From assembly GCA_026014875.1 (NCBI GenBank), contig JAOZHO010000037.1:1-64000 (forward strand): a stretch of DNA of 64,000 nucleotides, written 5' to 3'. Of this stretch, positions 52,843-63,463 are shown one piece after another. The DNA is from Candidatus Bathyarchaeota archaeon (GTDB lineage Archaea; Thermoproteota; Bathyarchaeia; TCS64). The position numbers and the translations under genes are program-made. Every line of letters begins with the position of its first letter. The stretch's first letter is position 1. The notes under the pieces are model-generated. The model was not told the DNA's origin and did no database searches. It saw nothing but the letters and a program-made list of their open reading frames with translations.

Positions 52843-54789
52843 ATGAAGAAGTTCACGATCATTACTCCCCCGGAGTACGAGCACCAGATTATTAGAGAAC
52901 TCGGTGCGGCGAGGATCGCCCAGCTGAAGGCCGTGAGCGGTGTGGATGTTGAACGGCTGAGAAAGACCGGGGAGAGGATCGTAGATTTCAAGGGCCTCTA
53001 CGAGAAATTCCAAGACGGATACAAGGCCCTTGAAGAATCGATTATGCTCGATCGGGAAGGCATGGATCTTGAAACTGATAATATGAGGGAGTTCACCGAA
53101 GACCCCGAGGCATCAGTGGATGATTTTCTCGCCAAATTCCGGGAGATTCAGGAGAAAATAAAGGAAGTCGACGCAAGCCGGGAAGAGGGAGAAAAGAAGC
53201 TTGTGGATGCAAAGCTGCGGTTGGAGAGCCTGAAGGCGCTCGAACCGGAGGAGCTGAAGAAGTGCCTCACAGTGGGGTTGGCCGATCTCAGCATCCAACA
53301 GCGCCTCCATGAGTACCTCGATAGGTTCGAGGATTTAAGCTCAAAAGTAGTGGAGTTTTCATCTGATGAGGGGTACGTCTTTGTATTCGGCCCCGAGGAG
53401 AGGAGGGAGTGGGTCGAGACCATCTTCCTCATATTCGAAGTGAAGGACATCTTCGAGGTGCTCAACACGCAAGACATCCTCCTGTCGATCGATGCCGGGA
53501 GGCGTGAGGAAGTCATAAAAGAGTACGAGCAGGAGACCCAGGAGCTCCAAGCCCTGACAGAGGCCGAGGCAGATTACGAGCAGATCAAGGCGGAGTACTC
53601 CAACGTGCTGGGAAACGCCAAGTTCCTGGACCAGATGCTCAGGATACTATCCGATGAGTCAATCCCCGTCCTCAGGACGAAACTTATCAGCGTGATACAG
53701 GGATGGATTTTGAGTGACGATGGGCAGGTTCTCAATCAGATAATTAATGATCTACAAGATGAAACAGGAGAACTGTTCTATCTAGAGTACGAGGATCCTG
53801 GACACGATGACCATGGGATTCCTTCCCTGGAACCGGTGATGAAGCCGTCATTCCTTCAGCCCGCATGGAAACTTACGTCCCTACGCGGGTGGCCCTCAAT
53901 CACCGAGGTGAACCCGATGTATATCTCCCTCATCGTCTTCAGTTTCCAGTTCGGACTGATGTACGGTGACATCGGACAGGGAGCTGTTTTCCTCATCATC
54001 GGGATCATCATGTCGAGGAAATTCAAGAGGGGGATGATGTCGAAGCTGGGGACTCTTTTCATACCAATGGGTATATTCGCCATCATCTTCGGCTTTGGAT
54101 ACGACTCGATCTTCCTGGTCGAGGGGCTCCTTTTCAACCATAACCAGTTCATGCCGAATCCCGTTCACGAGACGACGACATTGATGAAATGGGTTTTCAA
54201 GATAGCGACGGTCGAGATCTTGTTCGGTCTTGTCCTCGGCGCCATCAATCAGTGGAAGGCGGGGCACAAGTGGGGCATCCTCGGAATGCATGGCCTCGGC
54301 ATGATGCTCTATATCGCAGGACTGTCATTATCCGTGTTCGAATTCATCAGGACTGGCGACTTCATGGCCGTCATGGGCTACTGGGGCTTCTACGTAATGC
54401 TGAGCGGGACGTTCCTCGCACTGGTGGAGCCCATCATCGCCGCCATAGCCGGTAAGCGCTTCACTATAGAGGTGATCGGAGAGGGAGTGGGAGCGCTCCT
54501 CATGACCTTCGTAGAGGGACTCGCAAACCTCTTCTCCTTCCTCCGTATCGTCGCTTTTGCCCTCGCCCACGCCAGCCTAGCAGGGGCGGCTCACCAGCTG
54601 GCCGGTTTCATGGGAACCATCCCAAGCCTCATACTGATGAACCTCATCGCTATGACCTTTGAGTTCATGTCAAGCGGTGTACAATCTCTTAGGCTGCTCT
54701 ACTACGAGTTCATGGGGAAGTTCTATCATGGCGGAGGCTCCCCCTTCAAGCCTTATAGATTCAGGGTGCAAAAAGCCAAATCCGCCTAA
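52843..54789 (+). CDS. atpI: A/V-type ATP synthase subunit I (a-type stator subunit)
   Basis: The protein has a long soluble N-terminal half with coiled-coil segments (about residues 85-130 and 215-260). The C-terminal half is membrane-embedded (about 335-640), with PMYISLIVFSFQFGLMYGDI, then GKRFTIEVIGEGVGALLMTF and VEGLANLFSFLRIVAFALAH, which carry the key Arg of the ion half-channels. It forms the ion path against the c ring. The frame runs back to a TTG at 52825, but the ATG at 52843 (MKKFTIITPPEYEHQII) is the natural start. It is followed by atpK in the same direction. The other subunits are encoded by a convergent operon. Confidence 0.93.
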   Translation: MKKFTIITPPEYEHQIIRELGAARIAQLKAVSGVDVERLRKTGERIVDFKGLYEKFQDGYKALEESIMLDREGMDLETDNMREFTEDPEASVDDFLAKFREIQEKIKEVDASREEGEKKLVDAKLRLESLKALEPEELKKCLTVGLADLSIQQRLHEYLDRFEDLSSKVVEFSSDEGYVFVFGPEERREWVETIFLIFEVKDIFEVLNTQDILLSIDAGRREEVIKEYEQETQELQALTEAEADYEQIKAEYSNVLGNAKFLDQMLRILSDESIPVLRTKLISVIQGWILSDDGQVLNQIINDLQDETGELFYLEYEDPGHDDHGIPSLEPVMKPSFLQPAWKLTSLRGWPSITEVNPMYISLIVFSFQFGLMYGDIGQGAVFLIIGIIMSRKFKRGMMSKLGTLFIPMGIFAIIFGFGYDSIFLVEGLLFNHNQFMPNPVHETTTLMKWVFKIATVEILFGLVLGAINQWKAGHKWGILGMHGLGMMLYIAGLSLSVFEFIRTGDFMAVMGYWGFYVMLSGTFLALVEPIIAAIAGKRFTIEVIGEGVGALLMTFVEGLANLFSFLRIVAFALAHASLAGAAHQLAGFMGTIPSLILMNLIAMTFEFMSSGVQSLRLLYYEFMGKFYHGGGSPFKPYRFRVQKAKSA

Positions 54790-54924
54790 AACCCATTTTT
54801 CTATTCTTTTCTATGTGAAAAATTTATATGTGGTATAATGCATCTAAGGGAGAATAAGGTGAGACATAGCAAATGGAATCTGTAATCGCCCCCATGTCCG
54901 GTTGTCTCGAAGGAGGTACCGAAG

Positions 54925-55542
54925 ATGGTTAATTTAATTCCTGCTGCGGTAACAATAATTGCCAGCATAATAGCGGCCACATGGTGCATGATCCAGGGTT
55001 CAACTATTAACGCTTCGATAACTGCTGAAAAAGGTAGGTCTTCAGTTTGGGGCACAGCCCTAAACTACTTCGGCGCCCTACTGATCTTCTACGGCTTTCT
55101 ATCAGGTTTAATGTTACTGACTGATTCTGTTTCCGTCAACGTAAAGTGGATTATTGGTATAGTATCAATGCTAGGACTGATGCTTGTGGTAACAGCGGGC
55201 AAGAGTCGTGGAGATGAAGATGGTATCAAATTTACTTTAGGCAGAATGAACTTATGGGGCGTTTTAACAGCGTTCATTATAGTCTCTAGTCTAATATTCA
55301 TATTGCCGGAAGGAGGTGAAGGTATGATAATACCTGAAAGTGCGTGGCCCCTTCTCATGGGAGCTTTGACAATGATCGGTTCGGGATTAGCAGCTGCTAT
55401 GTGCATCATGACAGCTGTGAAAGCAGGTTCAGAAATGCTGATAAAAAATCCGGAACTGTCCATTTGGTCACTGCTATTCGTCGCTCTGGGAGAAGGTTTG
55501 GCCATCTACGGATTGATCGTGGCGATACTGTTAATAGGTTAA
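54925..55542 (+). CDS. atpK: A/V-type ATP synthase proteolipid subunit K, unusually long
   Basis: The 205-residue membrane protein has the c-subunit hairpin at its end: SGLAAAMCIMTAVKAGSEML, NPELSIWSLLFVALGEGLAI and YGLIVAILLIG, with the ion-binding Glu in LGEGLAIYG (about residue 192). Residues 1-66 look like a first hairpin (IPAAVTIIASIIAATWCMIQ, NYFGALLIFYGFLSGLML) that lacks this Glu. Two extra hydrophobic segments (about 73-92 and 108-128) lie between, so about six helices are predicted instead of two or four. A TATA-like atttatatg (about 54821-54829) and a strong ribosome site (aaggaggt) precede it. A role as c-ring subunit is likely, but the topology is odd. Confidence 0.8.
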   Translation: MVNLIPAAVTIIASIIAATWCMIQGSTINASITAEKGRSSVWGTALNYFGALLIFYGFLSGLMLLTDSVSVNVKWIIGIVSMLGLMLVVTAGKSRGDEDGIKFTLGRMNLWGVLTAFIIVSSLIFILPEGGEGMIIPESAWPLLMGALTMIGSGLAAAMCIMTAVKAGSEMLIKNPELSIWSLLFVALGEGLAIYGLIVAILLIG

Positions 55543-55682
55543 TGGCCATTTCGGCTATCCAGGATTTCTTTTACAGTTATTTTTATTTATATAGATCAGT
55601 TTTTTTAGTCAGATTTATAAATCAATAAAAATTCGGTTTTTACTCCCAGAGGAGAAAAAACTACAAAACATCGAGATTCTGA
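55543..55682. other. Convergent spacer between atpK and atpC
   Basis: The 140-base spacer between converging operons is AT-rich with several T runs (for example 55596-55603), which can serve as terminators for atpK; on the other strand a T-rich stretch follows atpC. No gene is present. Confidence 0.45.
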
Positions 55683-56696
55683 TTATATGAAGAAGGGAAT
55701 AGCCAAATATTTCAAGATGTCCTCGGCGGCGATTCCCTGGGTCTTCCCCCATGCGATGCCGACTAGGTCGTTCTTCTCAATCTCGCTGAAGACGAGATAC
55801 GCCATGACGACGTTGAATCCGAAATCGTCCTCTGCGCGCCCTCTCTTGGCGATGTTGTAGATATGCTGGCGGAGACGGCTCCTAATCAGGGCTACATCCC
55901 CCTCGTAGAGAGGGGCGAGGATTTCATTGTACGGCGGGTTGAGCCCCTGGATGACAGCCCTCAGGTCGTCCGCAGCCACAACCTCACCGAGTACGTCGAG
56001 TCCTATTCCGAATGTCGCCGGGAACATCTCCTCGGGGCTGTGAGCACTTTCACGGGAGCTCCTCTGCTTCGCTGCGACGAGAAAGTTCTCGACGTCAGCC
56101 TCAGCCTGGACGATCCTTCGAACTAGGCCCCGGTCTCTCTTGGGGAGACTCTCCAGAGACTTGAAGATCTCTCTGGCGCTCAGGTAGTTCAGGGCTATCT
56201 CGACGGGCCAGAGGGCGTCATATTTCTCTGAGAGCTCTAGGCTTGAAATGAGAGACTCGTATGGCGTGCCCTTAAGTCGCCTTATGGCATCTTGGAAAGT
56301 CTCCTCCGCGATAATCTCCTCGTAGCTCTCGACTTTGTAGGGTAAAATGGGTATGAGGGATTCGACGATCTGGGAAGTCGGGATGCCGCTGTACTTGCCT
56401 CTGATTATGCGCTTGAGGTTGATGACCTCGAACCTCAGATAATAATAGGACAGCAGGAAGTCTCCGACCTTGGTCGGCGCAAGATCCACGATCCCCGTCA
56501 TGCGCTCGATGAACTTCTGGTAGAAGACCTTCTCCAAGGCAACGGAGGTGTCGCCATCTGTCGCTAGGGGTACCTCACCGTAGGGTGTATCGGCCAGTTG
56601 TTCCACGAAGGCCTCTAGGCTCTCCCCCTCGGCTAGGGCGCGCATCTGTTCCGGGGTCAGGAGGTCCGCCATCATGGCGTGGCTCCTAATCACCAC
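55683..56696 (-). CDS. atpC: A/V-type ATP synthase subunit C
   Basis: The 337-residue protein matches the funnel-shaped subunit C (d in V-type) that links the central stalk to the membrane ring: MMADLLTPEQMRALAEGES, VGDFLLSYYYLRFEVINLKR, IIRGKYSG, and a C-terminal NVVMAYLVFSEIEKNDLVGI. It is mainly helical and soluble. The start is a GTG at 56696; upstream frames give only GTATRVTPG without a start. It is the last gene of the minus-strand ATP synthase operon, and its start lies 17 bases after atpD. Length is normal. Confidence 0.9.
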   Translation of the reverse strand: MVIRSHAMMADLLTPEQMRALAEGESLEAFVEQLADTPYGEVPLATDGDTSVALEKVFYQKFIERMTGIVDLAPTKVGDFLLSYYYLRFEVINLKRIIRGKYSGIPTSQIVESLIPILPYKVESYEEIIAEETFQDAIRRLKGTPYESLISSLELSEKYDALWPVEIALNYLSAREIFKSLESLPKRDRGLVRRIVQAEADVENFLVAAKQRSSRESAHSPEEMFPATFGIGLDVLGEVVAADDLRAVIQGLNPPYNEILAPLYEGDVALIRSRLRQHIYNIAKRGRAEDDFGFNVVMAYLVFSEIEKNDLVGIAWGKTQGIAAEDILKYLAIPFFI

Positions 56697-56713
56697 GTAG
56701 GAGAGGCCGGGGG

Positions 56714-57334
56714 TTACTCTCGTCGCCGTGCCAGGGCACCTCCGATGAGTTTCATCCTAACCAGCTCCTCCAGGCTCTCCTCGTCCAGCTTGTCCTGGAT
56801 GAACTTGATGACCTTCATGTAGCTGGGGATTATCGTGTTCTCCAGGGCGTTCACCTTCCTGTTCGTCTTCCCCAGCTCGTCCGCTATCCTCTCCGCCCGG
56901 GCCTCGTACTCCGCCAGCTGGAGGATGTCGTCGAGGACGCTCAGGACCTTCTCCGCGGCCTCGCTCAGGGTGATGTCGAGCTCTCCCGTGATTTGAGGTT
57001 CCTTCTCGACCTTAATGTACGGGTAGCGAACCCCCATGACGCTCCGCGGGAGGACCTCCAGCTCGAGGCGGCTTTTTATAGACTTTGCCTGGCTCTGCAC
57101 TTCGATGGGACCGAGGGAGATATAGGCGGCGGTCACGGCCCGATAAGCGACCCGGAGCTCCTCCAATAATCTGCTGCGTCGACCTTTGAGGATGTCAATG
57201 GAGGTCGTGAGCTCCTTGGCGAGATGGTCCCGCTTCAGCTTAAGGAACTCGGTCCCCCGCTCGATGAAGCCTATCCGCCGCTTCATCTCCATGAGGTAGC
57301 CCTTTGTGGGCCGAACACCCGTCGTGGCAGACAA
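56714..57334 (-). CDS. atpD: A/V-type ATP synthase subunit D (central rotor shaft)
   Basis: The 206-residue protein has two long coiled-coil segments at its ends (about residues 12-70 and 145-190: MKRRIGFIERGTEFLKLKRD, ELGKTNRKVNALENTIIPSY). A short middle beta part (PRSVMGVRYPYIKV) lies between. This is the antiparallel coiled-coil shaft that turns inside the A3B3 head. It starts 2 nt after the atpB stop. It belongs to the operon order F-H-E-A-B-D-C. Confidence 0.92.
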   Translation of the reverse strand: MSATTGVRPTKGYLMEMKRRIGFIERGTEFLKLKRDHLAKELTTSIDILKGRRSRLLEELRVAYRAVTAAYISLGPIEVQSQAKSIKSRLELEVLPRSVMGVRYPYIKVEKEPQITGELDITLSEAAEKVLSVLDDILQLAEYEARAERIADELGKTNRKVNALENTIIPSYMKVIKFIQDKLDEESLEELVRMKLIGGALARRRE

Positions 57335-57336
57335 GT

Positions 57337-58734
57337 CTAACTTTCACTCTTGTGGGCCGGATGATACTTGTTGATATAAGCCTCTCTAACCCGAATCAGA
57401 TCCTCTTCAGGAAGAATGGAGAGCAGATCCCAAGCGATCTCCAGGGTCTGCTCGACGCTCCTGTTCTCGTAGGGACCCTGCTTGACGAACTCGTTCTCGA
57501 ACCTGTCGGCGAACTCAAGCCAGGTCCTCTCCCTCTCGCTGAGGCCGACCACTCCAACGATCCTGACGAGCCCCCTGGCCCTCGCGCCTTCAGCATAAGC
57601 CATGTAGAGCTGATTGGCGACATCGCTGTGGTCCTCACGTGTGGTCTCGGCGCCGATGCCGTCCTTCATCAGCCGAGAAAGGCTGGGGAGGGGATTCATC
57701 GGAGGATAGATACCCCTGAGGCTGAGCTCCCTCTGCAGGATAAGCTGGCCCTCAGTGATGTAACCCGTCAGATCTGGGACCGGGTGGGTGATGTCGCCGG
57801 CGGGCATCGAGAGGATCGGCATCAGTGTCACTGACCCTGATTTGCCGGTGATCCTACCCGCCCTCTCGTAGATCGTCGCCAGGTCGCTGTAGAGGTAACC
57901 GGGATATCCCTTCCTCGTGGGGATCTCCTCCCGGGCGATGCTGATGGCTCTAAGTGCCTCGGCGTAGTTGGTCATGTCGGTGAGGATGACGAGGACGTGC
58001 ATCCCCAGGTCGAACGCGAGGTACTCGGCGATGGTCTGGGCGATCTTGGGGGTGACGATACGCTCGATGGGCGGGTCGTCGGCTAGGTTCAGGATCATCA
58101 CCGACTTGCTGAGGGCGCCTGTCTTCTCGAACTCCTCCCTGAAGTAGGCCGCCTCCTCGTGCTTGATACCCATCGCTCCGAAGACGATTGCAAAGTCCTC
58201 CTCGCTACCGGGAATAGTGGCCTGCCTTGCGATCTGGGCGGCCAACATGTTGTGGGGGAGGCCTGACTCGCTGAATATGGGGAGTTTCTGTCCCCTGACG
58301 AGGCTGTTCATGCCGTCGATGGCGGAGATCCCCGTCTGGATGAACTCGCTGGGCACGTCCCGGGCAGCTGGATTAATTGTCCCCCCGTTGACGTCCCTCA
58401 GGTCTGTGCTCAGCGGACGGGGCATGCCGTCCAAGGGCTCGAAGCTCCCGCTGAAGACCCTGCCGATTAGTTCCGGCGACATGGGTATCTTGAGGGTCTC
58501 CCCAGTAAACTTGATGGTGACGTTGAGGTCCATACCACTCGTGTCACCGAAGCACTGAACCATAGCCCAGTCCCTGCTGACATCCAGCACCGACCCCGTC
58601 ACCTCCTCTCCCGAGGGCCTCCTGATCCTGACGAGCTCGTCGTAGGAGACGCCCCTGATGCCCTCCACCATCAGGATAGGACCCCGAATCTCGCTTGTCG
58701 TCTTGTAGACCAAACCGGCTTGCTCAACTGTCAT
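57337..58734 (-). CDS. atpB: A/V-type ATP synthase regulatory subunit B
   Basis: The 465-residue protein is the non-catalytic B subunit. Typical blocks are PILMVEGIRGVSYDELVRIR near the N-terminus, the degenerate P-loop region LPHNMLAAQIARQATIPGSE without GKT, and FAIVFGAMGIKHEEAAYFRE. PAGDITHPVPDLTGYITEGQ and PSLSRLMKDGIGAETTREDH complete the pattern. It binds nucleotide at the interface with the A subunit but does not hydrolyse it. The ATG overlaps the last four bases of atpA (ATGA), giving tight stoichiometric coupling. Confidence 0.95.
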   Translation of the reverse strand: MTVEQAGLVYKTTSEIRGPILMVEGIRGVSYDELVRIRRPSGEEVTGSVLDVSRDWAMVQCFGDTSGMDLNVTIKFTGETLKIPMSPELIGRVFSGSFEPLDGMPRPLSTDLRDVNGGTINPAARDVPSEFIQTGISAIDGMNSLVRGQKLPIFSESGLPHNMLAAQIARQATIPGSEEDFAIVFGAMGIKHEEAAYFREEFEKTGALSKSVMILNLADDPPIERIVTPKIAQTIAEYLAFDLGMHVLVILTDMTNYAEALRAISIAREEIPTRKGYPGYLYSDLATIYERAGRITGKSGSVTLMPILSMPAGDITHPVPDLTGYITEGQLILQRELSLRGIYPPMNPLPSLSRLMKDGIGAETTREDHSDVANQLYMAYAEGARARGLVRIVGVVGLSERERTWLEFADRFENEFVKQGPYENRSVEQTLEIAWDLLSILPEEDLIRVREAYINKYHPAHKSES

Positions 58735-60497
58735 CTCTCAGTCACCTCGTACTCCTCGGCCACCTCATCCGCCTGCACCTTCAACAAATCTCGTGCCTCA
58801 TCTATGGGCTCCGTCCCGGGTTTCTCCTTCAGGCGCAGCAGCTCGGTGACGACACCCATCTCCCTTATCCTCTCGATGGGCACCCCCTGCCGAATGAGGG
58901 GCTCCACCTCGTCGTAGAAGTCGATGAACACCTTCAAGAGGGCTACCTGCTTCTCCGCCTCGCAGTAGGTGTCGACCTCGTGGAATGCGTTCTGTACGAG
59001 GAAACCCTCCCTCAGCATCTCCGCCATCTGTAGAACGAGCCTCTGCTCGTCCGGCAGAGCCTTCTCCCCGATGATCCGAGCGGTCTCCTCGATCTCGGAC
59101 GCCTCCTCCAAGAGCCTTAGCGCCCGGGCGCGGATGTCCTCCCAACCCGAGTCGAGTTGGGACCACCAGCGGGAAGCGACGTCCATGTACCGGGTGAAGC
59201 TCCTCAGCCAGTTGATGGCCGGGAAGTGGCGCCTGTAAGCAAGTTCGGTGTCCAGTGCCCAGAAGGTCCCGATGTAACGAAGAGTGTGCGTGGTGACCGG
59301 TTCGCTGAAGTCTCCGCCTGGCGGCGAGACAGCGCCCATCAGGGTCACGCTCCCAATTCTCCTGCCTTCCCCCAGGGTAACGACGCGTCCCGCTCTCTCG
59401 TAGATCTGTGCGATGCGGTCGGAGAGGTAGGCTGGGAAGCCTGCCTCAGCAGGGATCTCCTCCAGGCGACCCGAGATGTCCCTGAGGGCCTCTGCCCATC
59501 TGGACGTGGAGTCGGCTATGATTGCGACGTCGTAGCCCATGTCCCTATAGTACTCTCCGAGGGTGACCCCCATGTAGATGCTGGCCTCCCTTGCGGAGAC
59601 GGGCATGTTGCTCACGTTGGCGATTATGACGGTCCGCTGGATGAGGCGGCGGCCGCTCCTCGGGTCCTCAAGCTCGGGGAAGTGGGCGACGACGTCGGCC
59701 ATCTCGTTCCCCCGCTCGCCGCATCCGATTAGTATGATGACATCCGCGTCGGACCACTTGGCGATCTGCTGGAGTGTCACGGTCTTGCCCGTGCCGAAGC
59801 CCCCGGGGATGGCTGCGGCGCCTCCCTTGGCACACGGGAAGAATGTGTCGATGACCCTCTGGCCTGTCATAAGGGGCTGTACCAGGGGCAGCCTCTCCTT
59901 CGTGGGGCGCCCCATCCTGACGGGCCAAGTCTGCATCATCCTCAGGGGCACTATACCGTCAGCGGTCTCGAGTTCTCCCACGACTTCCTCGACGGTGAAG
60001 TCCCCGGACTTTATCGATTTTATCGTCCCTGACTGGTCGGGAGGAATCATCACCCTGTGCTCAAAGGACAGTGTCTCCTGCACTGTTCCGATGATGTCGC
60101 CTCCGACGACCTTGTCCCCGGCCTTAACCTTTGCCTCGAATGACCAAACCTTCTCCCTGTTGAGGGGGACGATGTTGGTGCCTCTGGACACGAAGGGTCC
60201 CGTTAGGTTCCAGAGCTCCGTCTGGGACCGCTGTACGCCGTCCACGATGGCGCCCATGATGCCTGGGCCCAGCTCGGCGACGAGAGGGTGCCCCGTGTCG
60301 ACGACGGGTTCTCCAGGCCGGAGGCCGCTGGTGACCTCGTAGCACTGGACGTAGGCGGTCTCTCCGCTGAGGCGGACGATCTCCCCCATGAGCTTGAGGT
60401 TCCCGACCTCGATGAGATCGCCGATCTTGGGCTTCTCATCGAACTTGGCCAAGATCAGGGATCCGTTGATCCTCTCGATGGTTCCTACTATGGACAT
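58731..60497 (-). CDS. atpA: A/V-type ATP synthase catalytic subunit A
   Basis: The 588-residue catalytic subunit has the N-terminal beta-barrel (SIVGTIERINGSLILAKFDE), the A-type non-homologous insert (about residues 110-200), and the P-loop PGGFGTGKTVTLQQIAKWSD. ILIGCGERGNEMADVVAHFP carries the catalytic Glu, and STSRWAEALRDISGRLEEIP follows. Rotary synthesis or hydrolysis of ATP takes place at its interface with B. It is flanked by atpE upstream and overlaps atpB by four bases. Length is typical (570-600) and no intein is present. Confidence 0.96.
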   Translation of the reverse strand: MSIVGTIERINGSLILAKFDEKPKIGDLIEVGNLKLMGEIVRLSGETAYVQCYEVTSGLRPGEPVVDTGHPLVAELGPGIMGAIVDGVQRSQTELWNLTGPFVSRGTNIVPLNREKVWSFEAKVKAGDKVVGGDIIGTVQETLSFEHRVMIPPDQSGTIKSIKSGDFTVEEVVGELETADGIVPLRMMQTWPVRMGRPTKERLPLVQPLMTGQRVIDTFFPCAKGGAAAIPGGFGTGKTVTLQQIAKWSDADVIILIGCGERGNEMADVVAHFPELEDPRSGRRLIQRTVIIANVSNMPVSAREASIYMGVTLGEYYRDMGYDVAIIADSTSRWAEALRDISGRLEEIPAEAGFPAYLSDRIAQIYERAGRVVTLGEGRRIGSVTLMGAVSPPGGDFSEPVTTHTLRYIGTFWALDTELAYRRHFPAINWLRSFTRYMDVASRWWSQLDSGWEDIRARALRLLEEASEIEETARIIGEKALPDEQRLVLQMAEMLREGFLVQNAFHEVDTYCEAEKQVALLKVFIDFYDEVEPLIRQGVPIERIREMGVVTELLRLKEKPGTEPIDEARDLLKVQADEVAEEYEVTER

Positions 60498-61136
60498 CTA
60501 TATCACTCCCAGGATCTGGGCCACCTCGGCCTCGATCCTCGACCTGACGTTGTCGAGCCTCCCCTTCAATGTGTTGTAGTAGGTCTTGGTTGCGTCCTCA
60601 TTTCTGACGACAACTCCCCCGGTTATGTCGATGGGGTCGTCTTCCAGCTTGATCGTTATGTCCCCGAGGTCTTTCTTCAGATTCCTGTTGATCGTCTTGA
60701 GGTTCTTCTTAAGGTAAGTTAGGTCTCTCTCGTTCGCAGTCACGAAGAAAACTTCGCCGCCAATAGCTGATGCGGACTCGGATATGAGCTTCATGAGGAT
60801 TGTAGTATAATCCGAGTTCATACCCTCTGCCATTTCTTCGAGCCTCCTCTCAGCGGCCTCAAAGACCTTGGAGAGGAGCTCTTGTCTGGTCTGCATCAGC
60901 ATCCGCCTGCCATCCAGCTCTGCGCGGCCTACGATCCTGTCACTGACAGCCCTCAACTCGGAACCGACGAGAGATATGATCTGCTTCTCGGATTCGGCTC
61001 TGATCTTCTCGACCTCCTCCTCGGCAGACGCCATGATCTTGTTTGTCTTCTCTTCCGCACGGGCCATGATGATTTTTCGCTTTTCAACGATCTTCTCGAT
61101 GAGCTGGGCTTCCAGCTCCAATGAATTGGTGCTCAC
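60498..61136 (-). CDS. atpE: A/V-type ATP synthase subunit E (peripheral stalk)
   Basis: The 212-residue protein has a long N-terminal helix rich in Glu, Lys and Ala (EKIVEKRKIIMARAEEKTNK, IMASAEEEVEKIRAESEKQI) and a globular C-terminal part (GGEVFFVTANERDLTYLKKN, DDPIDITGGVVVRNEDATKT). The GGVV block is the E-subunit signature. It pairs with subunit H to form the stator stalk. The start overlaps the atpH end by four bases and the stop abuts the atpA start. Confidence 0.92.
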   Translation of the reverse strand: MSTNSLELEAQLIEKIVEKRKIIMARAEEKTNKIMASAEEEVEKIRAESEKQIISLVGSELRAVSDRIVGRAELDGRRMLMQTRQELLSKVFEAAERRLEEMAEGMNSDYTTILMKLISESASAIGGEVFFVTANERDLTYLKKNLKTINRNLKKDLGDITIKLEDDPIDITGGVVVRNEDATKTYYNTLKGRLDNVRSRIEAEVAQILGVI

Positions 61137-61465
61137 TCGGGCAGTACCTCCTTCAGCACGAGCTCCAAAGCCTCCTGCATCTTGTCCTCAGGGAACTTTT
61201 CGAGCACATTTGCTTTCTTTTTATAATCCTCTATGCTTTTCTCGGCCTCGATCTTGGCCTTCTCTTCCGCTTCGCGTTTTAGTTCGTCGATGCCGCTTCC
61301 TCGTTGTGCCATGTTCCGCCTGCGTTCAGCCTCGGCCTTGGCGTTTGATACCATCTCGTCTGCCTTCCTCTGGGCTTCAGCGACGATTTCATCTGCCTTA
61401 ATCTCCGTGTCATCCAGGAGTCTCTGAAGGCGCTCCCCCATCGATAATACTCTTTCCATACTCAT
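61133..61465 (-). CDS. atpH: A/V-type ATP synthase subunit H (peripheral stalk)
   Basis: The 110-residue product is almost entirely a charged coiled coil (LQRLLDDTEIKADEIVAEAQ, RKADEMVSNAKAEAERRRNM) with a C-terminal DKMQEALELVLKEVLPE. It pairs with subunit E as the right-handed coiled-coil stator. It sits between atpF and atpE, overlaps atpE by four bases, and starts four bases after the atpF stop. Size matches archaeal AhaH. An alternative ATG lies two codons in (MERVLSMGE). Confidence 0.85.
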   Translation of the reverse strand: MSMERVLSMGERLQRLLDDTEIKADEIVAEAQRKADEMVSNAKAEAERRRNMAQRGSGIDELKREAEEKAKIEAEKSIEDYKKKANVLEKFPEDKMQEALELVLKEVLPE

Positions 61466-61469
61466 TTCA

Positions 61470-61787
61470 TCACAACTCTAGTCTGGTCCCTATCGCCAGT
61501 GAAACGACAGTCTGCAACTCCTCCATTCTCATCCCAGTCTCCATTGTGAAGTCCGGGATCAGTGCGAAAACGGGGGTGATATCTCCCCTGTTCATAACGC
61601 TCTCCCGAACGGAGCGAGTCTCCTCAGCGAAGCGTTCGGGTATAATAATGAGCTGGAACATCCCCTCCTCCGAGAGGCCTCTCACGGTCTTCGCCACGGC
61701 TTCCCCGGTCCCCGCGTCAAAGCCTTCGGCTCCGATGAGCTCGAAGCACGTGATGAAGGAGGGGGGACCAATGACGGCGACGCTCAT
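61470..61787 (-). CDS. atpF: A/V-type ATP synthase subunit F (rotor)
   Basis: The 105-residue alpha/beta protein fits subunit F: MSVAVIGPPSFITCFELIGA, EGFDAGTGEAVAKTVRG, and FQLIIIPERFAEETRSVRES, with a C-terminal helix. It binds subunit D at the top of the rotor and can regulate ATP hydrolysis. It is the first gene of the minus-strand operon, and a TATA-like ttttataatttta (about 61828-61840, minus strand) lies 40-50 bases upstream. Confidence 0.88.
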   Translation of the reverse strand: MSVAVIGPPSFITCFELIGAEGFDAGTGEAVAKTVRGLSEEGMFQLIIIPERFAEETRSVRESVMNRGDITPVFALIPDFTMETGMRMEELQTVVSLAIGTRLEL

Positions 61788-61942: not shown

Positions 61943-63463
61943 TTAGAAGACGTTGGCAAAGAAGGGTAGGAGGTAGTCAGTGACAAACCTCGGGTAGATG
62001 CCAATGAATACTGAGAACAGGGCGAAGACGAGGAGGGGCAAAATCATTGTCAGCGGGGCTTCCTTCACGTCCTTCAGGTTCTCCGGGAGGGGCCCGAAGA
62101 AGATGCGCCTTACTGTCCAGAGGGAGTATCCGACGGTGAGGACGGTCATGACTATGGACACGAAGGCGATTACGAGCTGTATGGGCGAGCCCGAGAGCGC
62201 GCTGTTGAAGACGCCGCTGAAGATGAAGAACTTGGACATGAAGCCCATCGTCGGCGGCACTCCTGCGATGGTGAAGAAACCGAGCAGGCACAGGACCGTG
62301 GTCCAAGGCATCCTGTCGGCCAGGCCCCCCATCTCCTTGATGCTCCGAGTCCCCACCTGGGCCATGAGTATGCCCGCGACACCGAACAAGATGCACTTAC
62401 CGAAGCCGTGGGTTATGTAGTGGAAGATCGCGCCTGACACGCCGTACTCGGCTGCGCTGGCGAGCCCCAAGAAGATGTAGCCCATCTGGCTGACGCTGCT
62501 GTAGGCGAGGAAGCGCTTAATGTCGTCCTGCGCCAGAGCCATGAGCCCACCGTAGACCAGCGTGAGCAGCGCCCAGAAGGAGAAGACGACGCTGAAGGTC
62601 TGGAAAACCGGAAACATGGGAATTATGACGAGCCTCGTAGCCGCGTACGCCCCAATGCCGATCATCGCCGGGCTCAGCAGCGCCGAGATGGGCGTCGGTG
62701 CCTCGCCGTGGGCGTAGGGTAGCCAGATGTGGATACCGAATACCGCCATCTTGGTGAAGAAACCGATGAGTATGGCGAAGGCGACCCAGCCGGCTATCGG
62801 GCTTCCGACGACGCCGCTGAGGGCGGCGATCTCGAAGCTCCCTGTGATCCAGTAGCTGCTGAGGATGCCCGCCAGGAGTATCACTGCCCCGACGTGGGTC
62901 CACATGAAGTACATCATGCCTATGCGCTCCCTCTCCCCGTAGCCGTAGTTGTTGATCAGAGCCCAGCTGGGCACGAGCATCAGCTCGTAGAACAGGTAGA
63001 ACTGGATGAGGTTTGTAGTTAAGACTGTGCCGAGCATTCCGACCGCGTACAAAAGGTAGAGAGCGTAGTAAGAGGCGTAGGCCGAGTTCGGTGTCGGGAC
63101 GCCTGTTTGGTGCTCCTCCTCTTCGAATCTGTGCTCCATATATGTGGTCGAGTAGACGCAGATCCCGAGGCAGAGGACGTTTATGGTGATCAGCATCCAG
63201 ATGCTCAGCCCGTCCGCAAGCAGGCCAAATGTCAGGCCAGCCTCGGGGGCCCAACCATAGCTCTCGCTATAGGACCCACCGCCGTTTACATCGGCGGCGA
63301 GGCTGAAAATCAATAATAGGGTTACGATTAACGGTAGGGTCGCAACCCATCCAACTTTCTTTCCCATCTGCTTACCAAGGTAGTAAACAACAGGTGCGGA
63401 TACTAGGGGTACTAGAAGTACCAGAGCCAGGGAGTAGGGTATTGCCATTTCATATGCCTCCAT
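61943..63463 (-). CDS. nuoM: Complex I-like subunit M (antiporter-like, NuoM/FpoM)
   Basis: The 506-residue membrane protein has about 14 helices of the Mrp-antiporter-like family: LIQFYLFYELMLVPSWALIN with the conserved Glu in YELM, FFTKMAVFGIHIWLPYAHGE with the key Lys and PxAH motif, and ISALLSPAMIGIGAYAATRL. DIKRFLAYSSVSQMGYIFLG follows. The protein translocates protons or Na+ in complex I-like oxidoreductases that take electrons from F420H2, ferredoxin or NADH. It overlaps the L-subunit gene by 14 bases. No N-subunit gene follows before the ATP synthase operon, so N lies elsewhere or is absent. Confidence 0.92.
   Translation of the reverse strand: MEAYEMAIPYSLALVLLVPLVSAPVVYYLGKQMGKKVGWVATLPLIVTLLLIFSLAADVNGGGSYSESYGWAPEAGLTFGLLADGLSIWMLITINVLCLGICVYSTTYMEHRFEEEEHQTGVPTPNSAYASYYALYLLYAVGMLGTVLTTNLIQFYLFYELMLVPSWALINNYGYGERERIGMMYFMWTHVGAVILLAGILSSYWITGSFEIAALSGVVGSPIAGWVAFAILIGFFTKMAVFGIHIWLPYAHGEAPTPISALLSPAMIGIGAYAATRLVIIPMFPVFQTFSVVFSFWALLTLVYGGLMALAQDDIKRFLAYSSVSQMGYIFLGLASAAEYGVSGAIFHYITHGFGKCILFGVAGILMAQVGTRSIKEMGGLADRMPWTTVLCLLGFFTIAGVPPTMGFMSKFFIFSGVFNSALSGSPIQLVIAFVSIVMTVLTVGYSLWTVRRIFFGPLPENLKDVKEAPLTMILPLLVFALFSVFIGIYPRFVTDYLLPFFANVF

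Follow-up and report, generated by a model that had tools for sequence, protein, structure and literature searches.

Three-hairpin K subunits are known from Methanocaldococcus jannaschii and other methanogens (PMC2359735), and the hybrid F/V rotor of Acetobacterium woodii and Clostridium aceticum combines a two-helix c subunit with a longer proteolipid that has one carboxylate-free hairpin (PMC7911925). Internal in-frame initiation of translation has been proven in archaea for Cas11b of Haloferax, which was described as the first such case (PMC11899642).

Here we analysed a K gene of Candidatus Bathyarchaeota, located in a window of 64,000 nucleotides (the whole stretch of DNA under analysis). 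Our main reading, to which we assign a probability of about two in three (0.66), is that this Bathyarchaeia lineage carries K as a fused gene of the A-type ATP synthase with two products. The original prediction had contrasted the six helices of K with the two or four that are usual in archaeal c subunits. The three-hairpin K subunits of methanogens were already on record.

The six-helix K gene and its locus

The ATP synthase genes of the window (52843-61787) are arranged in two convergent groups, I-K on the plus strand and F-H-E-A-B-D-C on the minus strand. The features of the locus are, in window positions:

52843-54789, plus strand: subunit I (a), upstream neighbour of K (PF01496, E 2e-17; start uncertain, 52825 or 52843)
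54910-54917, plus strand: Shine-Dalgarno sequence AAGGAGGT of the long form, found in the sequence (predicted duplex energy -11.4 kcal/mol)
54925-55542, plus strand: ORF of the long proteolipid (subunit K), 205 aa, ATG start, six predicted helices
54937-55119, plus strand: hairpin 1 (H1-H2), c-like, without the ion-binding Glu (hhalign against the Glu hairpin; AlphaFold2 helices)
55135-55311, plus strand: middle helices H3-H4, missing from four-helix relatives in the alignment (AlphaFold2 helices)
55310-55319, plus strand: internal Shine-Dalgarno sequence AAGGAGGTGA, within the codons for the long-form linker
55324-55542, plus strand: nested in-frame ORF, opened by the in-frame ATG behind the internal Shine-Dalgarno sequence, predicted ordinary two-helix c subunit of 72 aa
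55492-55494, plus strand: E190, ion-binding glutamate of the last hairpin (sequence; invariant alignment column)
55683-61787, minus strand: remaining A-type ATP synthase genes C, D, B, A, E, H and F (Pfam matches; convergent)

With subunit I upstream of K and the genes C, D, B, A, E, H and F convergent to it, the A-type ATP synthase encoded at the locus is apparently complete; the match of subunit H lies just under its Pfam cut-off. Beyond these genes, a complex I-like antiporter subunit is encoded at 61943-63463. At an E-value of 1e-6, PF00137 matches were absent from 74 of the 151 sampled genomes of the class Bathyarchaeia (at least 80% complete), in agreement with the reported lack of ATP synthase in many Bathyarchaeia. 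In the assembly from which the window derives (2.5 Mb, 96% completeness), the K gene represents the single PF00137 match and no second c-subunit gene was found. Thus, the original prediction's concern that another, normal proteolipid gene takes the role was not borne out elsewhere in the genome, but such a proteolipid may sit inside the same gene.

Kyte-Doolittle hydropathy analysis (19-residue window) revealed six peaks above 1.7 in the 205-aa K protein. AlphaFold2, employed with a 21-sequence alignment, placed helices at residues 5-36, 41-65, 71-93, 98-129, 141-174 and 176-204, at low confidence (pLDDT 60.5, pTM 0.40), and a Foldseek search with this model gave weak c-subunit matches. The confidence of the model is too low for conclusions on helix packing. 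The loops H1-H2, H3-H4 and H5-H6 contain Lys or Arg, which agrees with a topology of three hairpins and an outside N-terminus. The predicted six helices were thus confirmed by hydropathy, by the low-confidence AlphaFold2 model and by 12 six-helix relatives.

The PF00137 match comprises K residues 146-203 only (E 2.1e-10, 41 bits versus a cut-off of 24). Within the motif LGEGLAIYG, E190 is invariant across all aligned relatives and has no counterpart in hairpin 1. Profile comparison nevertheless revealed that hairpin 1 is homologous to the Glu hairpin (hhalign, 61 columns, E 1.2e-5, 81%), with Ala in place of Glu (FGALLIFYG versus LGEGLAIYG). For the middle helices H3-H4, homology to the other hairpins was not detected (hhalign: E 0.16 versus H5-H6, E 0.23 versus H1-H2). 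WG...I motifs had hinted that H3-H4 were born by hairpin duplication, an origin that we rejected since the profiles gave no support. ResB and DUF679 Pfam matches were under the cut-off and were disregarded. That is, the canonical Glu of the last hairpin, its loss from the first and the two extra hydrophobic segments in the middle were found as originally described.

Na+-binding c subunits carry a characteristic ligand set, a Gln in the inner helix together with a Ser or Thr after the Glu (PMC2359735). Compared with this set, the Glu hairpin of K has no Gln and a Gly follows E190, which makes coupling to H+ more likely than coupling to Na+.

The predicted internal start and its conservation

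Ahead of the Glu hairpin, the linker sequence is CCG GAA GGA GGT GAA GGT ATG ATA ATA CCT. At 55310-55326, AAGGAGGTGA-AGGT-ATG comprises a full Shine-Dalgarno sequence, a 4-nt gap and an in-frame ATG at 55324. The nested 72-residue product would read MIIPESAWPLLMGALTMIGSG...LGEGLAIYGLIVAILLIG, and its size and shape are normal for a two-helix c subunit. Predicted pairing of the internal site with the anti-Shine-Dalgarno sequence amounts to -15.9 kcal/mol, versus -11.6 kcal/mol (likewise predicted) at the next-best ATP synthase gene start tested. No 16S gene whose tail would confirm this anti-Shine-Dalgarno sequence was found in the assembly, and matches to CACCTCC turned out not to be 16S.

Within the ORFs of the window, a 7-base Shine-Dalgarno-like site lies upstream of 11 of 819 internal start-type codons, and AAGGAGGTGA is expected by chance 0.24 times per window; inside a single genome the motif does not stand out. 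When the duplex was tested against synonymous recoding gene by gene, P was mostly 0.02-0.12 and exceeded 0.5 for the three GGAGGAG variants. These single-gene tests are weak because a GGxE linker is Shine-Dalgarno-like by nature. As the statistics from a single genome are weak, the case for the internal start rests on conservation.

We therefore turn to the relatives, Candidatus Bathyarchaeota MAGs of one order with mutually related sequences. PF00137 matches above the family cut-off were detected in 27 of 32 genomes of the order, nearly all of them single; mixed bins are the likely source of the two matches each in G014 and G017 and of the extra matches in G019. The six-helix form is represented by 13 copies, the window's included, and the 12 further copies are 50-70% identical, so this form is not a chance product. 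In the four-helix form, about 60 middle residues are missing and hairpin 1 likewise lacks the Glu in the alignment. The tree included 11 complete four-helix copies, while one broken copy (G019) and one in G017 were left out. One well-supported branch (99/98) parts the six-helix from the four-helix form, and a split gene in G027 falls on the six-helix side.

Some genomes depart from this pattern. The broken four-helix copy of G019 (C44, L026/L089) is interrupted by a TAG stop, and C14 of the same genome (L113) encodes a four-helix K of the ordinary kind, each hairpin with its Glu; either replacement or a mixed bin may account for the pair. G029 encodes a six-helix gene, whereas its genus mates G028 and G030 encode an ordinary two-helix c subunit, which may reflect either horizontal exchange or a mixed bin. 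The K genes of family f12, considered as another nested case, were by eye ordinary four-helix K genes and were rejected.

The first comparison set comprised 26 K genes, and one further copy (G017) was examined beside them. GGAGG(T/A)G was present in all 26 genes, followed 7, 10 or 13 nt on (counted from GGAGG) by an in-frame start, which was ATG in 17, GTG in five and TTG in four of them. The 27th, a four-helix copy in G017 (L099), keeps the Shine-Dalgarno sequence with CTG at the start position and is a real exception. The first Gly codon of the Shine-Dalgarno sequence was GGA in 26 of 26 genes and the second GGT in 23 of 26, while the other Gly codons of the same genes were GGA (148, 32%), GGT (130, 28%), GGC (111) and GGG (81). 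Codon heterozygosity at the two Shine-Dalgarno Gly codons was 0 and 0.21; across 24 other conserved fourfold columns it averaged 0.67 and never fell under 0.48. By parsimony on a tree of the same genes, the third positions of the two Gly codons changed 0 and 2 times, versus 3-10 times at the 24 other fourfold sites.

At the protein level the linker varies (EGGEG, GGGENG, GGESG, GGETG, GGEAE, GGGG). In G029 the linker Glu is gone (GGGG), yet GGAGGTGG-TGGA-GTG is kept; thus, conservation is seen here in the DNA and not in the protein. Ten K genes of the ordinary four-helix type, in which each hairpin carries a Glu, were also inspected (nine belong to other Bathyarchaeia families, the tenth to G019); none of them has a Shine-Dalgarno sequence with start at its linker. 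Across the 27 copies compared above, and apart from the single CTG exception, Shine-Dalgarno sequence and start codon are conserved at the DNA level, as would be expected of a nested gene.

In G027, a TAA in the linker before the Shine-Dalgarno sequence makes the two-helix c subunit a gene of its own, with its ATG behind AAAGGAGGTGA. The upstream ORF (G027:C17, locus L100, 2446-3246, minus strand) ends at the TAA, and AAAAAGGAGGTGAGGGGAAAGAA, the ATG and the two-helix c subunit follow. Since the c subunit stands separately behind the same signal, what is an internal site in the fused genes serves G027 as an ordinary gene start. The upstream partner comprises a signal-peptide-like segment, an exported domain of about 130 residues with no Pfam match, and the Glu-less hairpin region H1-H3. 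From topology, two or four upstream helices, as in the fused forms, would keep the N-terminus of the Glu hairpin outside, whereas three, as in G027, would not.

The long form and competing readings

Two observations bear on the long form. First, its start in the window is predicted to pair more weakly than the internal site (-11.4 versus -15.9 kcal/mol). The best long-form pairing predicted for the six-helix relatives ranges from -0.8 to -13.3 kcal/mol, versus -15.2 to -16.0 at the internal site, and the internal site is also predicted to exceed the long-form starts in relatives with the GGAGGTG form. Second, the upstream part is under purifying selection in the relatives, codon position 3 varying far more than positions 1 and 2: among six-helix copies, differences at positions 1/2/3 were 0.26/0.12/0.57 in hairpin 1 and 0.39/0.17/0.56 in the middle helices. 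Such protein-level selection argues that the long product is probably made.

Before H1, G029 has no ATG, GTG or TTG and G003 a distant TTG only; an ATC behind a G-rich stretch occupies the place of the window's ATG, and initiation of the long form at a near-cognate codon may be suspected in relatives. The weaker and partly non-ATG long-form starts suggest, but do not prove, that the long product is minor. In several relatives (loci L003, L005, L006, L010, L075 and L091), we also observed ATC or ATA at the position of the window's ATG, behind a GGAGG-like stretch.

In the proposed mechanism, one mRNA would carry two initiation sites within the K gene. Initiation at 54925 would yield the long six-helix proteolipid, in which a c-like hairpin devoid of the Glu and two additional helices precede the Glu hairpin. 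The stronger Shine-Dalgarno sequence at 55310 would direct initiation at the ATG at 55324 and yield the two-helix c subunit of 72 aa, which contains the ion-binding Glu. This short c subunit would be the abundant product, and since a c subunit is needed in many copies, the stronger internal site fits. The long form would be a minor partner, present in one or a few copies per ring as a structural or assembly unit, perhaps in a mixed ring of long fusion and ordinary c, and would slightly lower the number of ion sites. We infer the use of the internal start by ribosomes, the two products, their ratio and their co-assembly from sequence. More tentatively, and at somewhat less than even odds, the gene may supply a heteromeric rotor ring, in which the two-helix c from the internal start would be joined by a Glu-poor four- or six-helix fusion from the outer start, at a ratio set by the ribosome-binding sites that would tune the ion-to-ATP ratio.

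Alternatively, the full-length six-helix subunit alone might be made and form the complete ring, which would then contain a single ion site for every six helices. In favour of this, the 13 six-helix copies keep the long ORF open under purifying selection, no other c gene was found in the genome and archaeal three-hairpin c subunits exist (PMC2359735). However, this reading leaves unexplained the invariant synonymous codons together with the conserved in-frame start of the linker, the split gene of G027, and the six-helix copies without a good long-form start (none in G029, the distant TTG in G003); we consider it unlikely. By our own estimate, a ring of the usual size (about 40 helices) would then have 6-7 sites and pass about 2-2.3 ions per ATP. 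The altered ring stoichiometry and ion-to-ATP ratio of the original prediction would stand if the long form alone were made. With two products a changed ratio does not follow, since the internal ribosome-binding site and start would give a normal 72-aa c subunit, and this part of the prediction is not secured.

It is improbable that the long ORF gives little or no functional rotor protein, leaving a plain ring of nested c subunits and an upstream hairpin region that acts as leader or assembly factor. In favour of this, G027 encodes the upstream part separately, together with an exported domain, and several relatives have weaker or non-ATG long-form starts. Against it, two clades retain the in-frame fusion and an even helix number, the protein sequence of the upstream hairpin is conserved, and a mere leader need not hold the reading frame open into c. 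Finally, GGxE linkers readily give Shine-Dalgarno-like stretches, but the conserved GGAGGTGA is very improbable as a mere pause signal or protein-level Gly-Gly-Glu linker, because its Gly codons are far more constrained than others, the Glu is lost while the DNA motif stays (G029), and all 26 genes first compared have an in-frame ATG, GTG or TTG at initiation spacing, which pausing does not need.

Comparison with known systems

The preferred reading, a fused two-product gene, can be set beside several described systems. With the three-hairpin c subunit of M. jannaschii (PMC2359735) the locus shares an archaeal K with six helices. In contrast to its three homologous c hairpins, the middle helices of the Bathyarchaeia protein form no recognisable c hairpin and a single Glu is present. 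The internal Shine-Dalgarno sequence and start before the Glu hairpin are features of the Bathyarchaeia gene; M. jannaschii is likened here by protein only. In four-helix K/NtpK and the c subunit of eukaryotic V-ATPases, the Glu is located in the last hairpin only, as in the four-helix Bathyarchaeia relatives, whereas the six-helix clade has a third helix pair inserted. Internal initiation giving a single hairpin from four-helix K/NtpK or V-ATPase c was not reported in the literature searched.

Cas11b, translated from within cas8b of Haloferax volcanii (PMC11899642), is likewise a nested C-terminal product that joins the complex of the long product, as is predicted here; it belongs to another system and is proven experimentally, whereas the Bathyarchaeia c subunit is predicted. 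If the internal start is used, this would be the second case of in-frame internal translation in archaea, judged by the only earlier report found (PMC11899642), and, within the literature searched, the first for a rotary ATPase. The annotated length of a K gene would then be no guide to ring stoichiometry, and the long ORF would mislead both annotation and estimates of ions per ATP.

In functional terms, the acetogen hybrid rotor (PMC7911925) comes closest; it pairs a two-helix c subunit with a longer, partly carboxylate-free proteolipid as proposed here. That rotor is F-type and encoded by separate genes, whereas the present one is A-type and, if the model is right, encoded by one gene. One gene would thus provide two rotor subunits at a ratio set by translation, a simple route to a hybrid ring for organisms near the energy limit.
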